Shown here: positions 7,836 through 43,177 of the stretch, piece after piece
How positions within the stretch are numbered: position 1 is the stretch's first letter
Layout of the letters: the number at the start of each line of letters is the position of its first letter
Origin: Caballeronia sp. NK8
GTDB lineage: Bacteria > Pseudomonadota > Gammaproteobacteria > Burkholderiales > Burkholderiaceae
NCBI RefSeq assembly: GCF_018408855.1
Contig: NZ_AP024328.1
Coordinates: forward strand, 310,001 to 374,000
Length of the DNA: 64,000 nucleotides
Reading direction: 5' to 3'
Translations under genes and position numbers: made by a program
The notes under the pieces: model-generated
The model's input: only the letters and a program-made list of their open reading frames with translations
Database searches by the model: none
What the model was told of the DNA's origin: nothing

Positions 7836-8259
7836 GGCGGCGGACTGGATAGTGATTCGACTTGCTCATTGCGCCGTTCGTCAGGGCGTGAGCGAATTGT
7901 CTGACTACATATGGCGATTTGCAACATTTAGTTACACGTCGAAATCGTTTGCTACACCCGAACTGACTCGCGCAATCGTTGGCGAAGAAAGGAATTTCTT
8001 CCGCTTTTCAATCCATTCGTAAAGCCGGAACTACTGAGGCCGTCGCTCAAACCTTGGCTTTATTGCCCATAGGCATGCCACTTGCACGCTCCTTCCCGCG
8101 ACTGCTCCCTGCGAACGACGAGGAAGATCGGTAATGTCTACCCGGTAGGGAGTTACCCGACTGATGCAAGAAAACGACAGAGTTACCTCTGCCAGTTCGC
8201 TCGAAGCCCAGCCTGCCGCTCTGAAGGTCGGGACCATTCGCTATCTGCATCGTGTAGAC
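7836..8259. other. Divergent intergenic region between flhD and imuA
   Basis: About 420 bases without a convincing gene. It must hold the flhD promoter on the minus strand and, at its right end, the SOS-controlled imuA promoter. I see no clear consensus promoter for flhD. Short ORFs on both strands have no ribosome site. Confidence 0.5.
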
Positions 8260-8290: not shown

Positions 8291-8997
8291 ATGGGAGCGT
8301 TAGCCCTCGAGGACATTCATCCAAGTTTGTGGCGGGGTTCGCAGCTGGCCTCTGCTCGCGTGAACGTCGTGCCGTGTGGATCTGAGACGCTTGCCGCAGA
8401 ACTGCGGGGGGCGGCTGGCCCAAGGGCGCGCTGACCGACCTGCTGGTGCAGCAGCCGGGCGTTGGCGAAATGCGATTGCTGCTGCCGGCGCTGAGAGCTG
8501 TCGCCCAACGGCGCATTGCTTTCCTGCAGCCGCCGCACCGCTTTCAGCCGGAAGCAGCGGCGTACTGGGGTCTGCCTGAGACGTCGATCAACGTCGTGCG
8601 CGCTCAGAAGACCGCCGATGCGCTTTGGGCGGGCGAGCAGATCCTTCGTGCGGCGACGTTCGGCGCACTGATCTTCTGGCAAACGCATGTGCGACCGGAA
8701 GCGCTACGCCGCCTGCACCTTGCCGCACAGACGAGCGAGTCGTTGTTCTTCATGGTCCGGCCGCTCGCCGCTGCGAGCGATACGTCGCCTGCCCCGCTTC
8801 GCATTGCTGTGCGCCCTGCGTGCGACAGCGTTTCATTGGAGTTCGTGAAGCGCCGCGGTCCAGCGCGTGACGAACCGCTTGTCGTTGGACTGACCCATTC
8901 GCCTATCCTGTTGAATCGCCATGCAAGTGTGGATCGGCGTGTATCTGCCGCACCTCAGCCGAGAAGTCTTCCAGCCGAGCTGGTCGTCCACGAGTGA
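8291..8997 (+). pseudogene. imuA: imuA, frameshifted by one base in a G run
   Basis: ImuA is the RecA/SulA-like accessory protein of the SOS mutasome. Reading starts at the ATG at 8291 (MGALALEDIHPSLWRGSQ), then hits TGA at 8432. From about 8410 the family sequence continues one frame back (GGGWPKGALTDLLVQQPGVG, then GLPETSINVVRAQKTADALW) to the stop at 8997. The frames would join if the run of six G at 8406-8411 were seven. The restored protein would be about 235 residues, normal for ImuA, and would overlap imuB by 77 bases. This may be a true mutation, a slippery site, or a sequencing error. Confidence 0.85.
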
Positions 8998-32008: not shown

Positions 32009-33814
32009 CTACGCCGCTTCTGCAAAGAGACTCAACTGCGTGGTGTCATAGCTCAACAATGCTTGATGCTCGTCGTCGCCGATGGCGTTCTCGACCAAAT
32101 GCGCGTCGAGTTCTGCCGGCGTCAGGTTCAGACGCTGAGCGAGTCGCGAGAAGTACTGCCCGCGTTTGGCCATGTCCTGATACCGCTGGGCCATGCCGGT
32201 CGGCAGCTTCACGATGCCCTCGTTCAGCCAAAAATGCGCTGAATCAATTGCGTCGCGATGCTGCGTGTCCAGCATAAAGGCGGTGTCGTAGGCGCATGTG
32301 ACGAACAGGCACGCCGCTTCCGCATCCACCTCGAACTGCGAGGCTTCCTCGAAGTAGACGGTCTGCTCACCGCCAGTCGTCCTCGCATATCGTCCGGGCC
32401 GACCCGGATGCCGGTACGGATTCCACTGCTCTGCATCGAACGAGCGCAGCCCGACCGACGGAGCGTCACGATCGTACCGGCCGACCGGATACCAGCCGTG
32501 CAGCACGATGTCGGTCTTCGGCAAGCCGTCGAGCTTCGGAACCGGATACCGGCGCCCAAGCACGTTCACGTCATGCCAAACCGCCAGCGCCGGAAACGCA
32601 TGCGGCGCGTAGTGATGCATCGACAGAAAGAAGTCGATGGCCACCAACTGCTGCGGCGTCACGAACTCGAACTGCGGCTCGCACAGCATCCGGTTCTGCT
32701 CCGTATCAGCGATAGAACCATTAGCGAGGTCGGCCGAGTGCGCTTCAGCCCGGTCCCGCTCGGCCGCGTCGATACTGGTCAGCATCTTCAGAAAATCGAT
32801 ACGCGTTGCGTAGCTGTACGTGTCCGCCTGAATGCGCGTGTAGCCTGCATCGCTCAGGGACCGCCCTACCAATTCGCGACGCGGCATATCCCACTGGATC
32901 GCGAGCAAATAGTTGCGGAAGTCGTTCAGCGGTCGAAGATGCCCGTACTGCTCATCCTCGATCATCGCCTCAAGCGACTTGTCGCGATCGCCGCTGACAA
33001 GACATATGGCGCATCCAAAACGACTGCCACAAGAAGCCCTAGCCCCGGAGTCGCCCACCACGACACCACACGTTCCACCGTTCCCTGCCCGATAAATCTC
33101 GGACAGGCGATGTATCGTGCGCGGCATCAACGGCGACGGAAACGGCAGGCTTTGAGCATCCGCCAGCAGCGCGAGCATCGTCCAAACATCATCGGAGGAC
33201 CATTCGCTTAACGGGCTGAGTGTGAGCGCCCCGGTTCTGCTTCTCACCGGATGATCGGCGTTATCGCGTCGCTCGGTCATTGCCACCGCACGTGAGGTAC
33301 TTTCATCCCTGCGCAGGCCCAGCACCGTTATGACTTCGCGAGCGCCGTCATCTGCCGCCTGGCGTTCGAGCAATGTTCGAAGGCGACCTCCCGGGCGTAC
33401 CTTCCAAGTATCCGCGCATGCACGGGTCCGTCTACCGTCTCGGACACCGTTCTCTGGCGTGCGCGCCAACGTTCCCCGCCCTATCGTCGAGACGACGAAT
33501 TGGCTTGCCAACGAAGGCGTCGTGACATGGGTTTGCACCGGCAACGCCGACGCTTCGATGTATAACTGCAACTCGTCCAGCACGGAGTGAAGAAAGTTCG
33601 CGATCGTTGGATTCTCGATGGTCGTGTCGGCCGATTGAACGTGGTGGGCGATCGTCGTGCCGCCGGCACGGCGAATCGCCTCAACCATCAACACCAGCGT
33701 ACACGTGCTGTCCTTGCCGCCCGAATAAGCGCAGCTCAGGCTATGCCCAAGTTCGATGTATCGCTGCATGACGCCGATCGCAGCTTCCATCTTCGAAACA
33801 ATTTCGTGTTCCAT
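32009..33814 (-). CDS. DndC-like PP-loop (PAPS reductase family) protein
   Basis: A 601-residue protein. The PP-loop SGGKDS is at residues 31-36 and GLRRDES at 166-172. A cysteine set (Cys249, Cys262, Cys268, Cys271; SRFGCAICLVSGDRDKSLEA) followed by PLNDFRNYL matches the Fe-S region of DndC, which activates DNA for phosphorothioation. About 300 further residues have no known match. The ATG at 33814 follows GGAGCGA, and a structured leader precedes it. No DndE or cysteine desulfurase gene lies nearby, so phosphorothioation is not established; nucleotide-linked sulfur or amine transfer is inferred. Confidence 0.8.
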   Translation of the reverse strand: MEHEIVSKMEAAIGVMQRYIELGHSLSCAYSGGKDSTCTLVLMVEAIRRAGGTTIAHHVQSADTTIENPTIANFLHSVLDELQLYIEASALPVQTHVTTPSLASQFVVSTIGRGTLARTPENGVRDGRRTRACADTWKVRPGGRLRTLLERQAADDGAREVITVLGLRRDESTSRAVAMTERRDNADHPVRSRTGALTLSPLSEWSSDDVWTMLALLADAQSLPFPSPLMPRTIHRLSEIYRAGNGGTCGVVVGDSGARASCGSRFGCAICLVSGDRDKSLEAMIEDEQYGHLRPLNDFRNYLLAIQWDMPRRELVGRSLSDAGYTRIQADTYSYATRIDFLKMLTSIDAAERDRAEAHSADLANGSIADTEQNRMLCEPQFEFVTPQQLVAIDFFLSMHHYAPHAFPALAVWHDVNVLGRRYPVPKLDGLPKTDIVLHGWYPVGRYDRDAPSVGLRSFDAEQWNPYRHPGRPGRYARTTGGEQTVYFEEASQFEVDAEAACLFVTCAYDTAFMLDTQHRDAIDSAHFWLNEGIVKLPTGMAQRYQDMAKRGQYFSRLAQRLNLTPAELDAHLVENAIGDDEHQALLSYDTTQLSLFAEAA

Positions 33815-33819
33815 CTTTT

Positions 33820-33871
33820 TCGCTCCAAGAAAATAGGAGCGACCCATTCGGGATTCGCTCCCGAATGGGTT
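33820..33871 (-). promoter_or_regulatory. Structured RNA leader E1 upstream of the PP-loop gene
   Basis: On the minus strand ACCCATTCGGGA and TCCCGAATGGGT form a perfect 12-base stem (33842-33870). Three segments compete: the loop side GGAGCGA (33855-33861), the downstream TCGCTCC (33836-33842) and the Shine-Dalgarno GGAGCGA (33820-33826). The middle one can pair perfectly with either of the others. This is the layout of a translational on/off switch. Related elements are at 34886, 35625 and 38529. Confidence 0.65.
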
Positions 33872-33882
33872 AATTGCTCAAG

Positions 33883-34698
33883 TCAAATCAAGACGTCAGC
33901 CGTCGCGCGTTGCGCCTCTTCAAGGCCGTCGTGCGCTGCTGCGAATAAGTCGCTCTGCCGCGTTGCACGATCCAGGCGCGGCAGCGTCTTCGCATACCGG
34001 CTCACGCTCGTACCGTCGAAACTGTCCGCACCGGCGGCCGCGCAGATGCGAATGCGCCGCGCCGAGTTCACGCGACCGACGTGCAAGTAGCAGTGACGCC
34101 GTCTTGCGAGCGATCCCCAAACGTGCGCCGTCTGCTCTTTCCAATCTGTCGAACCGCCAATGAAGATGCCGACAGCAGGCGAGAGAAGCGAGGCGAGGTC
34201 TTCGACCTGCATACCGTTCTGAACGGCGATCAGCATCCGGCACGGCATCCCGCGAAGTCGTTCCAGCCACTTCAGCGAGTAGTCGAGGGAGGCCATGCCG
34301 CCCATGACGATGTCCGGAAGGACAAGCCAATCGGCCCGCTCGCCGAGCCGTTCGACAGCAACAGAAAACGCGTGCTCGTCGAAGGGCTGACCTTGCTGGT
34401 AAGCGGTCCAAGCGCCGTTATCTAACGCATAGCGATCGAAGCCCTCTGTACGCAACTCGCCCTTGGCCGAGACCAACAAGCGCCAGTCGGCGCCCTTCAG
34501 TGCGGCCAGGTTGCGGCGGGTGCCCGTGCGACTCGCGTAACCGACGAGCGGCTGCCGGTGCATGGCGATCCGTTCTTCGATCTCCGGGTCATCGTCAGCA
34601 GAGCCATCAACTCCGAAATAGTCGGCGTAAGCCATGAAGGCTTGCGCGTAGCCCGTCTTCTGGCCACTGGCGTATTGCTCCAGCCACGGCGGCGTCAT
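33883..34698 (-). CDS. tRNA-guanine-transglycosylase-like (DpdA-like) protein
   Basis: A 271-residue TIM-barrel-type protein. Residues resembling the TGT active site are Asp93 in LDNGAW (proton acceptor position), LPDIV at 127-131, FIGGSTDWK at 179-187, and GADSFDGT at 223-230, where TGT has its nucleophilic Asp (GxDxFD). It is shorter than tRNA TGT (about 370 aa), as are phage and island DpdA proteins that put 7-deazaguanine bases into DNA. No preQ0 synthesis genes are in the window. It overlaps the upstream 61-aa gene by 4 bases. Base exchange in DNA is inferred from the family. Confidence 0.65.
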   Translation of the reverse strand: MTPPWLEQYASGQKTGYAQAFMAYADYFGVDGSADDDPEIEERIAMHRQPLVGYASRTGTRRNLAALKGADWRLLVSAKGELRTEGFDRYALDNGAWTAYQQGQPFDEHAFSVAVERLGERADWLVLPDIVMGGMASLDYSLKWLERLRGMPCRMLIAVQNGMQVEDLASLLSPAVGIFIGGSTDWKEQTAHVWGSLARRRHCYLHVGRVNSARRIRICAAAGADSFDGTSVSRYAKTLPRLDRATRQSDLFAAAHDGLEEAQRATADVLI

Positions 34699-34880
34699 TG
34701 GCGCACCCCGTTTTGGGGTTGCACTCTGCCGCCGATGATCAGGAAGACCTTCGTCTCGACGTTCCGGACCCAAGGGCGAACTTCACCCGCGTGAGTCGCG
34801 GTGCCGGCGATGTAGCCAATCGCCGCTTCGAGGTTGGCAAACTGCTCCGGCGATGCGCCCAGCTTCGCTGCTTCAAACAT
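34695..34880 (-). CDS. Small protein, 61 aa, coupled to the TGT-like gene
   Basis: Starts MFEAAKLGASPEQFANLEAA after GGAG seven bases upstream. Its stop overlaps the start of the TGT-like gene (ATGA). No domain recognised; possibly a small accessory subunit. Preceded by leader element E2. Confidence 0.6.
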   Translation of the reverse strand: MFEAAKLGASPEQFANLEAAIGYIAGTATHAGEVRPWVRNVETKVFLIIGGRVQPQNGVRQ

Positions 34881-34885
34881 GAAAA

Positions 34886-34940
34886 CACTCCACAGAAAGA
34901 ACGCGGAGCGACCCTCGCGGGTCGCTTGCCCGCAAGGGTT
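34886..34940 (-). promoter_or_regulatory. Structured RNA leader E2 upstream of the 61-aa/TGT-like pair
   Basis: Same family as E1. Stem ACCCT-GCGGG/CCCGC-AGGGT (34911-34939, one mismatch). The loop AGCGACC pairs perfectly with the following GGTCGCT, and CGCTCC (34905-34910) can instead pair with the Shine-Dalgarno GGAGTG (34886-34891) with one G-U pair. Confidence 0.6.
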
Positions 34941-34972
34941 GAAAAAAGAAATTAGACGGCTATTTGTGCCAC

Positions 34973-35359
34973 TTACTCGATCAACTTGACGCTTTGCCAC
35001 CAGCGACCGCCCGAAGGCAGGTCTCTGACAAAAGCGAAGTTCTCCGCTTCGTCGCGCGTAAGCTCGATCAGCCCGCCCTTCAAGATGGCCGCCTGGAGAT
35101 AGACGACATTCGCGAGGGCGAGGGCGCCGTGCTGTTCGGCGATGCCGGTCAGCGTTTCGACTGCATCCAGCAGTTCCGCATTGAACCGCTTCGCGTCAGC
35201 GGCGAGACGCAGCGACACGTCAGCGTCGGCGATCGCGCCCACCACCGCATTGCATTGGGCTTGCGGGTCGTCGGGCCCGTACTGCTCGGCTTTGATCCAG
35301 CTTCGGATCACCAGGTCGTTCAGGACGTCGTCGACGAAATCGGTGCAGGAATAGGCCAT
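34973..35359 (-). CDS. Hypothetical protein, 128 aa
   Basis: Starts MAYSCTDFVDDVLNDLVIRS. It is a helical soluble protein without a recognised domain. It sits inside the candidate DNA-processing cluster, upstream of leader E2, on the same strand. Confidence 0.6.
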   Translation of the reverse strand: MAYSCTDFVDDVLNDLVIRSWIKAEQYGPDDPQAQCNAVVGAIADADVSLRLAADAKRFNAELLDAVETLTGIAEQHGALALANVVYLQAAILKGGLIELTRDEAENFAFVRDLPSGGRWWQSVKLIE

Positions 35360-35398
35360 GGAAGGCTCCAGTCAGAAAGTGAGGATAAAGAGCCGCTG

Positions 35399-35578
35399 TC
35401 AGAGGCGACGCAGACGGCCGTTATCGAACGCGGACGCACGACGCAGGTCCGGCGGCCGCGGCGTTTGCGATTGCGCAGTGGCCGGTGCGGCTTGCTGCGT
35501 TGGCGGCTGGTGACGCACCGCGTTCGAATGAGACGGACTGCCGGCTGCCGCGAGCAGAAGCATCAAAAGGTTTGCCAT
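35399..35578 (-). CDS. Possible small secreted or membrane peptide, 59 aa
   Basis: Starts MANLLMLLLAAAGSP, a short hydrophobic stretch, then a Gln/Pro/Ala-rich tail. There is no ribosome site; a GCGCC/GGCGC hairpin lies just upstream. Its position after leader E3 is the main support. Doubtful. Confidence 0.35.
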   Translation of the reverse strand: MANLLMLLLAAAGSPSHSNAVRHQPPTQQAAPATAQSQTPRPPDLRRASAFDNGRLRRL

Positions 35579-35624
35579 AGTGGATAGCGCCGAAGGGCGC
35601 GAGAAAATGAAAGAGGAACGAGAA

Positions 35625-35658
35625 GCGCCCCTTGTGGGGGCGACTCCCCACAAGGGTT
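35625..35658 (-). promoter_or_regulatory. Structured RNA element E3
   Basis: Minus-strand stem CCCTTGTGGGG/CCCCACAAGGG (perfect 11 bases, 35629-35656) with loop AGTCGC and a following GGGGCGCTTCT, same order as E1 and E2. Here no good Shine-Dalgarno partner follows, so this copy may have lost its switch role. Confidence 0.55.
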
Positions 35659-35667
35659 AATAGAAGA

Positions 35668-37989
35668 TCAGGCGGCAAGCGCCTGTACATCGATGACTGC
35701 GTCGGCCTCTGCCACAAGGTCGGGCGTTTGAGAGATGAAGAACTCCCGTTGATACCCGCCTTGGCGCAGCACTTCGCGTTTCATACGCATGAACTGCACT
35801 TTGCGCTCGGGATCGAGCGGGCCGTCTGACTCGTCGCTGAACAAGGTCTGATACGGCTGACCGGTGTTCTGCGCGAGATAGAGCGCGATGCCCCGCGTGA
35901 GGCACTCGTTGATCCAGACCTTCTGACCGCCGGACATGACGGAGACCGACTTACTGCTGTCGGACTCAGCGTCGTGAACGAGGATCTCGAAGCCCTCTCG
36001 CAGTTCGCCGCTTGCGAGCGTGCGCTGCGTGCGGATCTCCACTGTGAAGCGCATGCCGTAGCACGCGAGCAATAGCTCGTTGACGGTGTGCGTCAGCGCT
36101 GGACCCGCGTCATCGATGGTCAACGCGATCACGCCGTCGTTGCCCAAGCCCTTAGCCAGCAGCTTCCAATGAGCAATTTCGTCGGATAGGCGATCGGCAC
36201 GAGACTGCGTGGCCGAGAACTTCTCCAACTCCAGCGCCAGGGCTTCCGCTTCGGCCTGCAAGACACTCTGCGCGCGGATCGATTGCTCGATTCGACTATC
36301 CAGTGCCGCGACGGTCTCCCGGTTCGCTGCGATGTCGCGGTCAAGCTTCGCAATCGCTGCCGTAGCGTCAACCGAAGCGAGTCGCCCGACCTCCTCGGTA
36401 ATGCGCGCAAGCTCCGCTTCCATACGCGTCTTCTCAGACTGGTACTTGGCGGTACGTGCGGCACTTTCCTCGGCGATCGAACGCAACTCAGCTTGCGCCG
36501 CTTCAAGTCCCGACACGGCTGCATCGAGCAATGGCTTAGTGGCGGCAAGCTCTGCCGCCGCCTGCAAGGCGCGGCGCAACTGCGCGGCCGCATCGGTGAT
36601 GGCGAGCATCTCAACACGCTTCGCCGCCAATTCAGCCGGCACCAGTGCCAAGGCTTCGGCCTGCGCTTTCTTCTCGCGATACTCCGCCCGAAGATTCGCC
36701 ACCGAAACACGCTGCACCTCCGCTTGCTCTTTCGCTTGAAGGGCTTGCGCGAGCAGCGGACATTGCGCATGCATCGAATGACCGACGCACGGCACCTGCT
36801 CCGCCACCGCTGCCTGCTTGCTCAACGTGTCGAAGTGCGCGGCTTTCGTCGTGCCCTGGTTCATCAAGCTGGTAAGCGTTGCATCGAGCGTCGTCAACGT
36901 CGCGCGTTTGACCTCCAAATCGGCAATGTCGCGCTGCAGGGGAGCGAACCTCGCTTCCTCGCGCGCAATCGCCAACTCGGCCTCCTCGCGCTTCGCCGCC
37001 GCACCGACGATCGCCTCGCGGCGAGCCAGCGTTGCTTGGTGCGTGGCCACGGTTCGACTCAGCACGGAAACGCGCTGCTGACAACGAACCGCCGCTGCTT
37101 GCTCGTCGCCGGCCGCGCTTTTCAGGGCACGCCCCAACTCGTCGCGGCGCACGCCCAGCTCTCGCAGGCGCGCTTCGGTCGTGGCCGATTCGCTCTGCTT
37201 GGCCGCAAGCGTCGCCCGCTCTTGAGTCAGCTTGCTCGCGTGCTCAAGCGCGGCATCGCGTTGCTCCCGAGCGGCACGCAAGGTGTTGCCCTGCGCGACG
37301 ATCGACTGCTCAGCGTCTGCTTTACGCTGCCGCTTCCCGGCGAGCGCGCCAAGCTCAGACTGGATGCCGTCGAGCGACTTGCCAAGGACCTTCGCGACGT
37401 CAGCGGCTTTCGCCGACAAGGCTTTCAGGTGATCGATGCCGAGAAGTTCAGCCAGCAGCGTCTTGATCTCGCCCGCGCCGTACGACGCGAGCGGCCGCCG
37501 GTTTTGAGCCGAAAACACGCTCGTGAAGAACGTTTCCAACGAACCGTTGATCGCCTCGACACAGCGGTTATACGACTCCGCCTTGCCGTCCGACACCGTT
37601 CCGTCAGGCAGGGACACCGGACGCCACGTACCGTCGACGCCACGATAGGCAAGGTAGTACTCCGCCTTGCCTGTCTTGCCGGGCTTGCGAAAAGTGAAGG
37701 ACGAGCGATATCGAATGCCGTCGTGCTCCCATTCGAGTTCCTTCAACGCACTGGTGCCACAGATGTGATCCCAGTACGAGAAGGCGTCGACCGACAGCTT
37801 CGACGCGCGCGACGGCATGATCGGATACGGGTGCAAGTTGTCCATGATCGTTGTCTTGCCCGCCCCGTTAGGGCCGGTCAAGGCGATCAGGCCATCCGGC
37901 AACGCCTCCAAATCCAGCGTGACGCTTTCGCGTTTCATGCCATCGCGCACGCCAACGAAGCCTTCCAGTGTCAGTTTCAGAGGCCGCAT
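35668..37989 (-). CDS. SbcC/Rad50-like SMC ATPase
   Basis: A 773-residue ATPase with split ABC halves: Walker A GPNGAGKTT near residue 40, long coiled coils, then the signature VMSGGQKVWINECLTRG and Walker B LFSDESDGPLDPERK near the C-terminus. In place of the zinc hook CPxC it has VPCVGHSMHAQCPLL midway. It is shorter than E. coli SbcC (about 1050 aa), close to phage gp46-type. With the phosphoesterase at 38755 it should form a DNA-end-processing nuclease. Start at 37989 (MRPLKLTLEGFVGVRDGM) overlaps the upstream gene by 13 bases. Confidence 0.88.
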   Translation of the reverse strand: MRPLKLTLEGFVGVRDGMKRESVTLDLEALPDGLIALTGPNGAGKTTIMDNLHPYPIMPSRASKLSVDAFSYWDHICGTSALKELEWEHDGIRYRSSFTFRKPGKTGKAEYYLAYRGVDGTWRPVSLPDGTVSDGKAESYNRCVEAINGSLETFFTSVFSAQNRRPLASYGAGEIKTLLAELLGIDHLKALSAKAADVAKVLGKSLDGIQSELGALAGKRQRKADAEQSIVAQGNTLRAAREQRDAALEHASKLTQERATLAAKQSESATTEARLRELGVRRDELGRALKSAAGDEQAAAVRCQQRVSVLSRTVATHQATLARREAIVGAAAKREEAELAIAREEARFAPLQRDIADLEVKRATLTTLDATLTSLMNQGTTKAAHFDTLSKQAAVAEQVPCVGHSMHAQCPLLAQALQAKEQAEVQRVSVANLRAEYREKKAQAEALALVPAELAAKRVEMLAITDAAAQLRRALQAAAELAATKPLLDAAVSGLEAAQAELRSIAEESAARTAKYQSEKTRMEAELARITEEVGRLASVDATAAIAKLDRDIAANRETVAALDSRIEQSIRAQSVLQAEAEALALELEKFSATQSRADRLSDEIAHWKLLAKGLGNDGVIALTIDDAGPALTHTVNELLLACYGMRFTVEIRTQRTLASGELREGFEILVHDAESDSSKSVSVMSGGQKVWINECLTRGIALYLAQNTGQPYQTLFSDESDGPLDPERKVQFMRMKREVLRQGGYQREFFISQTPDLVAEADAVIDVQALAA

Positions 37990-38525
37990 GACACGTCCTC
38001 CGACACGCTCATCGAAGCCGACATAGCGGCCATCTGCGCATAGAAAGCGTCGTCGTCCTCGTTGGGAAACGGCTCGTTCATCACGACCGACGGCATGGAC
38101 TGCACCGCTGATTTGGGCGCTTGAAGCGTCCCGTCCAGTGCGGCCGCCACGTTGTCGCAGACTCTGCCGAACTCGCGACGCGCGTTCGTCAAAAGCTCGG
38201 ACCAACCGCTATGCCCGGTGAGGCTGCGGATCTCGGCAGGCGACCACTGGCTTGCATACCCTTCCTGATACGACCACAGAAGGTGCTGCATTTCAACGGT
38301 CGGCGTAACGGCGATCTCGCAGGAGCCGGGGGTCGTGGCGATCAGCAACAGCGTCTGACCGAACTGCGCCAGCACTGCGCCGCGGTACTGGCCGAACGGC
38401 TGATGCTGAATGGCAGCGGTGAAGCCTGCCAGATCAACTAACGACTTTTGAAGATCACGCGATGAGCAGTCGCCCAACGCGAACGTGCGAACCCAGTTCG
38501 GGCCAGCGGGATAAAGACCAAACAT
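37977..38525 (-). CDS. Hypothetical protein, 182 aa
   Basis: Starts MFGLYPAGPNWVRTFALGDC after the Shine-Dalgarno CGGAG. Soluble; acidic C-terminus (EPFPNEDDDAFYAQ). Lies between the SbcD-like and SbcC-like genes and overlaps the latter by 13 bases, so it may be a third subunit. Preceded by leader E4. Confidence 0.6.
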   Translation of the reverse strand: MFGLYPAGPNWVRTFALGDCSSRDLQKSLVDLAGFTAAIQHQPFGQYRGAVLAQFGQTLLLIATTPGSCEIAVTPTVEMQHLLWSYQEGYASQWSPAEIRSLTGHSGWSELLTNARREFGRVCDNVAAALDGTLQAPKSAVQSMPSVVMNEPFPNEDDDAFYAQMAAMSASMSVSEDVSCGL

Positions 38526-38528
38526 GAT

Positions 38529-38586
38529 GCACTCCGTTTATGGTGGGCGGAGTGCGGCCCCGGTAGGGATCGCTCCCCGCCAGGGT
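38529..38586 (-). promoter_or_regulatory. Structured RNA leader E4 upstream of the 182-aa/SbcC-like pair
   Basis: Same arrangement as E1: an imperfect stem (38559-38585), loop GGAGCGA (38570-38576), then GCACTCCG (38548-38555) which pairs perfectly over 8 bases with the Shine-Dalgarno region CGGAGTGC (38529-38536). The Shine-Dalgarno and its complement both differ from E1, which is a covarying change. Confidence 0.6.
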
Positions 38587-38754
38587 GAAAGAAGAAATGA
38601 AACCGCTAGAGAAAGGTCCTGCCACTACTTATCGATGCGTCAAAGACGCGGTGAAACCTCTGTTTCGATAGCGACGTTGATAGTCGGCTATCGGAACACG
38701 GCTTGCGTGTTCAAGCAAAGGAGCCGTACTGGCCTCCCCTGCATGCGCGGCTAC

Positions 38755-40167: not shown

Positions 40168-40190
40168 AAAAAGGCCACCCGAAGGCAGCC
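40168..40190 (-). terminator. Terminator/attenuator upstream of the SbcD-like gene
   Basis: Minus strand: GGCTGCC-TTCG-GGTGGCC forms a 7-base stem (two G-U pairs) with a UUCG tetraloop, followed by TTTTT. It stands between two genes read in the same direction. A second hairpin (GCGCTC/GAGCGC, 40204-40228) is just before it. Confidence 0.65.
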
Positions 40191-40725: not shown

Positions 40726-40879
40726 CGGAATCTCCTTCGCATGAACAAGTAGATGGGCCGCCGAGGCGGACGGATTCGATGCGCATGTACAGCGCGGTCG
40801 AAAACATTTGAGCAAGCGGTTCTTGCTGAAATGCTCTCATGCGCGAGCGAGAAAGGCTGTGCGACACGGAGAAAGGATG

Positions 40880-40901
40880 CCAGCCCCCGAAGGGGGACTG
40901 G
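40880..40901 (-). terminator. Hairpin after the RDF-like gene
   Basis: Minus strand CCAGTCCCC-TTC-GGGGGCTGG forms a strong stem six bases after the stop of the gene ending at 40908. Only a weak T-rich stretch follows (CATCCTTTCT). Confidence 0.5.
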
Positions 40902-40907
40902 CCAAGG

Positions 40908-42554: not shown

Positions 42555-42586
42555 AAAAAAAGCCCGCTCCGGTGAGGGAGCGAGCT
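42555..42586 (-). terminator. Leader terminator (attenuator) upstream of the 89-aa gene
   Basis: Minus strand: GCTCGCTCC and GGAGCGGGC pair over 9 bases (one G-U), followed by eight T. It lies 53 bases before the first start codon of the cluster, so transcription entering from upstream would often stop here unless antiterminated. Confidence 0.75.
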
Positions 42587-42610
42587 TCGTGAAATCGATA
42601 GAGACCTACG

Positions 42611-42637
42611 CGCCACGTCCCTTCCGGGGACGTGGCG
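42611..42637. repeat. Perfect hairpin in the cluster leader
   Basis: CGCCACGTCCC and GGGACGTGGCG form an 11-base stem. It lies upstream of the attenuator on the minus strand and may be a competing structure or a protein site. Confidence 0.6.
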
Positions 42638-43177
42638 TGCAGGGAGCGGCCGGCATAAGCCCGGGTCGCTCGATCAGAGAACGTAAAGTCGTTCTCGCGC
42701 AGCATGGTCACGCCGCGCAACAGCCCTTTTCGGAATTACTTCCGCCGCAGGAATCACGGATCAGCCAACTTCGATCGTTCTACCCAGATCAGGCTCTGGA
42801 GAGAGAACACCCGAAAACCCGGGTTCGAACGATGTACCGGCGCAAATGAATGCGGCTCAGGGTACGAGTATCACGGCTGAAATTGGGGAGTGTGTAGCGA
42901 GCACACTCAGCACAAGGAAGATTTCCACACCGGTAGCTATCCGGTCGGCGCATGCCAACGCACGGGGCGGGCACGACTTGCAGAAAAAAGATGGACTCCG
43001 GGCTTGGAGTCGAGGTCGATGCGTCGGCGACGCGGGGAATGGAGTTGAGTATCCGGGTTAATGACGTGCGCGTGCGCTTGAAAGCTCACGAAATTCATAT
43101 AGCTTTCGCCCGTTCGACTTTTGCCTAATCAATGAAACTCTTACGTGAGAGAGAACACAGACATTCCGAAAATACCC

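Follow-up and report, generated by a model that had tools for sequence, protein, structure and literature searches.

Translational riboswitch platforms are built from three strands, namely an anti-anti-SD, an anti-SD, and the Shine-Dalgarno sequence (SD), and in erm-type translational attenuators a pair of hairpins is opposed by a single alternative one whose formation frees the SD. The leaders analyzed here are like the former in that a strand A competes with the SD (strand C) for an anti-SD (strand B), but no aptamer or conserved unpaired bases were seen in them, their anti-anti-SD lies in a hairpin loop, and the predicted ON helix uses up that hairpin. They share with erm-type attenuators the plan of two hairpins versus one, but not a general open reading frame ending near the first hairpin (P1). 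The type I toxin mRNAs timP and tisB are reported to carry a stable SD hairpin, with an upstream alternative pairing that enables their translation and a proposed S1/30S standby (PMC11228461). Both resemble the leaders in combining an SD hairpin with an activating alternative pairing, but they are single toxin mRNAs that use a pseudoknot, and timP also has an antitoxin RNA, whereas the leaders are modular, stand before many unrelated genes, and would form a nested alternative hairpin (P3). In aapA3, successive competing metastable hairpins form around the SD during transcription, with covariation (PMC6733600). Both aapA3 and the leaders have competing hairpins around the SD, but the transient hairpins of aapA3 hide the SD, whereas the alternative hairpin of the leaders would free it. 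The sbcD RNA (RF01757) and the radC RNA (RF01754), both listed by Weinberg et al. (2010; PMC2864571), share operons with the leaders, with the sbcD RNA at the operon head and the radC RNA just 5' of two leaders of a locus outside Burkholderiaceae (L079), but the leaders match neither model. The strand logic of the leaders is that of known translational switches. Their aptamer-free modular form before many mobile-element genes seems to be undescribed, and a published description of such a family was not found in the open-licence literature searched, which did not show the 2017 Weinberg survey and in which PMC8632094 was checked by term.

The window, which is the whole 64-kb stretch of Caballeronia sp. 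NK8 DNA that was analyzed, lies on the 435-kb contig C7 of a seven-contig genome. Its minus-strand cluster at 32-42.5 kb encodes DUF7696, Gp3-like, and NADAR proteins, an SbcD-like phosphatase, a small protein, an SbcC-like ATPase, a PAPS-reductase-like protein, and unknown proteins. DNA matches to the cluster were found in 20 plasmid records from Caballeronia, Paraburkholderia, Burkholderia, and Cupriavidus. At least 80% of the cluster is covered in two of them, both from Caballeronia (92.9 and 89.6% identity), and the others are partial; 19 of the 20 (all but H19) were analyzed as relatives. Part of the operon is duplicated on contig C5 of the same genome (L037:4880-9659), and this copy has leaders as well. 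At the head of the operon, the sbcD RNA was detected at 42602-42751 (-) with 113.6 bits, and a strong terminator-like hairpin follows it at 42559-42588 (-), just 5' of the first gene; together they may be a leader, an attenuator, or a separate small RNA. Further terminator-like hairpins sit inside the operon, at 40879-40902 (-), past the Gp3-like/NADAR region, and at 40173-40190 (-), 5' of the SbcD-like gene; antitermination may be needed for its transcription. A second repeated element, approximately CGCG..CGCATCGA, was noted near 38632-38653, 40776-40801, and 43016-43036 (-); it occurs in the long gaps of the cluster and its relatives and looks, by eye, like the CGCAUC part of the radC RNA.

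A preliminary description had assigned one layout to four intergenic gaps of this cluster (E1 to E4; Table 1), consisting of a minus-strand hairpin, a loop of type GGAGCGA, and a following strand that in three gaps also matches the SD of the next gene. The hairpin was confirmed at its place in all four gaps, each of which folds better than every one of 200 shuffles (z-scores of -6.6, -4.7, -3.8, and -4.4, in order), but C is missing in E3. In E1, E2, and E4, B comes directly after P1 or at most three bases on, C precedes the AUG, and B matches the SD as proposed: TCGCTCC of E1 pairs with the SD GGAGCGA and also with the loop GGAGCGA, CGCTCC of E2 pairs with GGAGTG including one G-U, and GCACTCCG of E4 pairs with CGGAGTGC. 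The common loop holds for E1 and E4 but not for E2, which has CAAGCGA, and the loop of E4 does not meet B in one run, the predicted contact being two runs with a mismatch between them. The relatives carry equivalent gaps, plus some others, with the P1-B-C layout in different letters. No SD-like partner for the B-like strand of E3 was found in the window copy or in the Caballeronia relatives examined, so that a gene kept without its SD pairing, a situation named beforehand as one that would speak against the proposal, does occur in part, among the Caballeronia copies. The E3 gap of Burkholderia and Paraburkholderia plasmids has an SD-like partner (e.g., GCGTTCCTCG pairs with CGAGGAACGC); since relatives outside Caballeronia have C, the window copy has probably lost it.

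Table 1. Predicted features of the four leaders in the window (positions count from the first base of the window).
Feature	Positions	Strand	Basis or remark
E1 P1 hairpin, loop = strand A	33842..33870	-	fold and shuffles
E1 strand B (anti-SD)	33836..33842	-	pairing with C
E1 strand C (Shine-Dalgarno)	33820..33826	-	precedes PAPS-reductase-like gene 32009-33814
E1 alternative hairpin P3	33835..33862	-	about 4 kcal/mol less stable than P1
E2 P1 hairpin	34911..34939	-	fold and shuffles
E2 strand B side of P2	34902..34910	-	pairing with C
E2 strand C (Shine-Dalgarno)	34886..34894	-	precedes gene 34695-34880
E2 alternative hairpin P3	34903..34933	-	predicted fold
Pyrimidine-rich tract 5' of E2	34940..34954	-	T/C in 12/15
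E3 P1 hairpin, then B-like strand (about 35622-35627), without C	35629..35656	-	
E4 P1 hairpin	38558..38585	-	fold and shuffles
E4 strand B	38548..38555	-	pairing with C
E4 strand C (Shine-Dalgarno)	38529..38536	-	precedes gene 37977-38525
E4 alternative hairpin P3	38546..38581	-	predicted fold
Pyrimidine-rich tract 5' of E4	38587..38601	-	T/C in 14/15

Fifty leaders, selected manually in the window and in 18 plasmids, formed the starting set, from which the C-less E3 of the window, L005, L006, and L011 were left out, as were four loci not annotated as gaps (L011:8064, L013:3670, L014:3915, and L019:7888). Covariance models were built from 26 and then from 52 leaders, with P1 and P2 as the only helices in the search models. 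Nine of 132 matches were dropped by rule (end without a start codon, or length below 48 nt), presumably the nine listed antisense overlaps, and 19 were added by hand out of 38 further matches, leaving out antisense echoes and copies at overlapping loci; the resulting collection, drawn from both plasmids and genomes, comprises 142 matches, of which 53 are non-redundant. The E-values are rough, reaching about 0.02 for some of the 53 when the search was small, and non-redundancy is a string-similarity cut of 0.82 in the earlier tests (n = 17 sets) and 0.80 later.

The family had been taken as one of the 32-42 kb cluster, and this proved too narrow, since matches occur beyond the cluster and beyond Burkholderiaceae. 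In the genome of the window, 18 matches were found at E <= 1 and 12 at E <= 0.01 among the 150 candidates scored out of 3545, all 18 on C5 and C7. With the 52-leader model, at least 94 of 398 Burkholderiaceae genomes and 9 of 25 genera were matched at E <= 0.001, and across the phylum at least six of 299 genomes, four of them outside Burkholderiaceae; across the class, at least eight of 369 genomes were matched, seven of them outside Burkholderiaceae. These counts include the window's own genome and are lower bounds, because 13-18 candidates were scored per genome. Outside Burkholderiaceae, several matches are grouped: L079 has three in 1.8 kb, and G804, G813, and G1002 have two to three or more in stretches of up to 3 kb. 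One Burkholderiaceae locus (L080) has eight in 7 kb, all of them at start codons of ORFs (72-604 aa). Of the 142 matches, 139 end at a start codon whose ORF is at least 40 aa long, given that the model itself ends on ATG, and the distance from the start of P1 to the start codon has a median of 60 and quartiles of 57 and 66 (n = 53). The genes downstream include those for ParB (558 aa), a PAPS-reductase-like protein (601 aa), a DpdA-like protein (328 aa), HATPase, DUF3577, DUF3085, and DUF5983 proteins, many proteins without a Pfam match, and one uncharacterized protein of 44 aa. In the plasmid records the members are carried by mobile elements, and this is probably true of chromosomal matches such as those of L079 as well. 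Matches to ncS54 (RF02871), a Burkholderia sRNA, were seen at L036:5777-5860 and L081:9444-9528, about 245-270 bases 5' of a leader that precedes an 81-aa gene.

We consider it likely that each element acts in cis as an aptamer-free translational leader with two states, OFF when P1 and P2 are formed and ON when P3 is formed. In the OFF state, P1 would form, B would pair with C (P2), and the next gene would be poorly translated. In the ON state, P3 would draw on the inner half of the 5' arm of P1, on loop A (which mimics the SD), on the outer half of the 3' arm of P1, and on B together with a few bases past it, and C would be left free. The two predicted states are well supported by sequence comparison, from which we infer that both folds arise in the cell and govern translation.

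The covariation that was looked for in homologues was found. In 26 leaders aligned without structure, it amounts to 0.243 versus 0.148 ± 0.014 in shuffled alignments, and in 52 members, whose alignment is fitted to P1 and P2, to 0.311 versus 0.154 ± 0.010 (shuffled) and 0.059-0.091 (slid). The same fitted alignment of 52 members has two-sided changes in all eight modeled pairs of P2, with 90.6% of cells paired in 51 distinct rows, and in five pairs of P1; two-sided changes in P1 and P2 within the E4 class were looked for and none was found. In permutations, which treat members as independent, none of 20,000 matched the own A:B or B:C pairing, either for n = 36 or for the 53 non-redundant members, and the control A:C was reached by 2,490 (n = 36) and 1,094 (n = 53) of 20,000; the z-scores for the 53 are -11.7 (A:B) and -14.8 (B:C), compared with -1.6 for A:C. 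Within E4 alone, where the A zone is one base short, the own pairing does not stand out, since it was reached by 1,420 (A:B) and 344 (B:C) of 5,000 permutations. Three competing strands kept by covariation are the mark of an SD/anti-SD/anti-anti-SD platform, and the earlier proposal, in which loop and SD contend for one strand and evolve in step, is borne out by homologues with permutation controls.

The outer and inner G-C pairs of P1 are almost invariant, which would suit a plasmid-borne trans-acting protein or RNA that recognizes P1 (ACCC..GGG) and shifts the balance between the folds. ProQ-family genes on C5, one of the two leader-bearing contigs, also speak for such a factor, but no Hfq or ProQ match was found on C7 (ProQ matches are on C4 and C5, and those of Hfq on C1 and C3), and the loops vary freely. 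Moreover, the two-fold logic already accounts for the consensus of P1: its 5' arm would be GGG because the arm has to mimic the SD, and its 3' arm CCC..GGG because this is needed to close P3. We therefore look on a trans-acting factor as a doubtful explanation, if one worth keeping in mind.

Returning to the two-state leader, modeling indicates that the state competing with P1 and P2 would be the long hairpin P3, which replaces P1, rather than a pairing made while P1 stays formed. A pseudoknot of the latter kind appears to be excluded by geometry, because B adjoins the 3' arm of P1 and leaves no linker to cross a stem of ~10 bp. In P3, the inner 5' arm of P1 and loop A pair with the outer 3' arm, B, and bases of the P2 loop, and the 3' arm of P1 folds on itself at the tip (CCC..GGG). 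This hairpin is predicted in 51 of the 53 non-redundant members and absent in two, and with C held unpaired, it is the best fold, as a single long hairpin, in 36/50. As in E1 of the window, P3 of L006 is less stable than P1 by about 4 kcal/mol, and the two are equal in L005.

The leaders could also be static SD-hiding hairpins, in which P2 lowers translation, P1 insulates it from the preceding gene, and P3 is a by-product of the likeness between loop and SD. P1+P2-type folds do dominate at full length, P3 being the best fold in 3/50 when C is present; the predicted barriers toward P3 are high, with medians of 20.9 kcal/mol from P1 and 25.4 kcal/mol from P1+P2 (heuristic upper bounds; n = 49, since E4_L009 gave no P3); and A shares words with C, as copying would produce. 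P3, however, is better than P1, B, and C explain. Its energy beats that of shuffles keeping the P1 pairs, B, and C in 16/17 members and, at the 0.05 level, in 33/36, and it is better than in shuffles of the loop letters only in 12/17 non-redundant members and 32/50 overall. The pairs found in P3 only (5' arm of P1 with the P2 loop) were reached by 16 of 10,000 permutations (n = 17) and by none of 20,000 (n = 36); F:D within E3 alone was reached by 530 of 10,000. In addition, one base of the E4 class tracks its partner in P3 rather than that in P1: the P3 pair is A-U in eight members, G-C in seven, and G-U in four and is never broken, whereas the pair that this base would make in P1 is broken in 10/19. 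A two-sided change was seen in one of 10 P3 pairs of this class. Judging from these comparisons, which show that complementarity for both predicted folds is kept while the letters change, static hairpins are an unlikely explanation.

How the two-state leader would choose between its folds is a more tentative matter. We suggest as a possibility, and with less than even confidence, that the fold is chosen during RNA synthesis by the freedom of the 5' edge of P1 (ACCC). A ribosome or 30S/S1 on an upstream pyrimidine-rich tract, or alternatively a ribosome ending a nearby upstream gene, would keep P1 from forming and channel the RNA into P3; with P1 unblocked, the RNA would lock into P1 and P2. 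Spontaneous conversion of P1 to P3 was rejected, the findpath barriers being too high, and because of these barriers the molecule may keep the first fold taken. When ACCC was masked and C not yet made, P3 was the best fold in 49/50 leaders, compared with 36/50 unmasked, and at full length with ACCC masked it was best in 21/50. Masking raised the mean chance that the SD core is unpaired from 0.023 to 0.208, but the median from 0.000 to 0.041 only, so that masking alone would be insufficient at equilibrium. The sole conserved unpaired base is an adenine before P1, and strands A, B, and C vary freely; the input is therefore expected not to read sequence. The 15 bases 5' of P1 are rich in U (0.39-0.40) and poor in G (0.13), both in the 23 members with a near stop codon and in the 28 without; at -45 to -31 of members without a near stop, U is 0.22 and G is 0.31. 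On these grounds, the ribosome or 30S/S1 is proposed as the blocker of P1. The tract is weak 5' of E1 of the window (7/15).

It is quite unlikely, in our judgment, that a ribosome on an upstream gene or leader peptide acts in these leaders by Erm-like attenuation or coupling. The topology, 1:2 and 3:4 versus 2:3, is that of erm leaders, and the stop codon of a long frame lies at most 25 nt from P1 in 23/51 members; 28/51, however, have no such near stop, and E4 lies 120-181 nt from one, so that upstream translation cannot be the general trigger. A transcription attenuator, with P3 and a U-rich sequence as terminator and P1+P2 as antiterminator, is highly improbable, because at least five U in the eight bases after P3 are present in 19/49 leaders but absent in 30/49, E4 of the window included, and the conserved pairing of B with the SD would be left unexplained.

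Nor do the leaders appear to fall into a described class. No leader reached a family threshold of Rfam in the stretches scanned (the window, further sets of eight and seven loci, and one local scan), and a known Rfam family was rejected on this ground; the four window leaders had no match at E <= 5, and a match to a terminator family, which was looked for, was not seen. The leaders stayed below the threshold of RF01757, which in the window is matched at 42602-42751 alone, and those of L079 below that of RF01754. Against a threshold of 40 bits, two radC RNA copies of L079 score 34.5 (7953-8039) and 85.8 (8712-8854); they stop 12 and 22 bases short of two leaders, the second preceding a DUF3577 gene. 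A riboswitch in the strict sense, one of the functions first suggested, is not supported, as it would have aptamer-type conserved unpaired columns and none were seen in the alignments, whose invariant columns are in P1, P2/SD, the start codon, and the adenine before P1. As for a thermometer, which was also suggested, no such family was matched at threshold, the best being ROSE_3 with 26.6 bits versus 43 on one distant leader (L089:2140-2198), the sole Rfam overlap seen. The small hydrophobic toxin gene of a type I toxin mRNA was not recognized among the genes downstream, and loops such as CAAGCGA and CGUGU have, by eye, no GGA for CsrA/RsmA.

Taken as a whole, the leaders may, in a view that we put forward with reserve, constitute a large and hitherto undescribed RNA family that switches by structure alone, found mainly on plasmids and probably on integrative elements of beta- and gammaproteobacteria. 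Such a switch would have no ligand, protein site, or fixed sequence; the presence or absence of a nearby ribosome at the time of synthesis would commit the mRNA to a translated or a silent shape, and the element would have been copied gene after gene within an operon. If this is true, mobile elements use a general-purpose translational switch made of three mutually complementary strands, and the consensus of ACCC..GGG..CCC..GGG, anti-SD, and SD is explained without a protein or ligand site. The family would also offer a clean case in which to study how an mRNA commits itself to one shape while it is being made, and the leaders would mark a set of plasmid genes for DNA repair and modification, partition, and many unknown functions.
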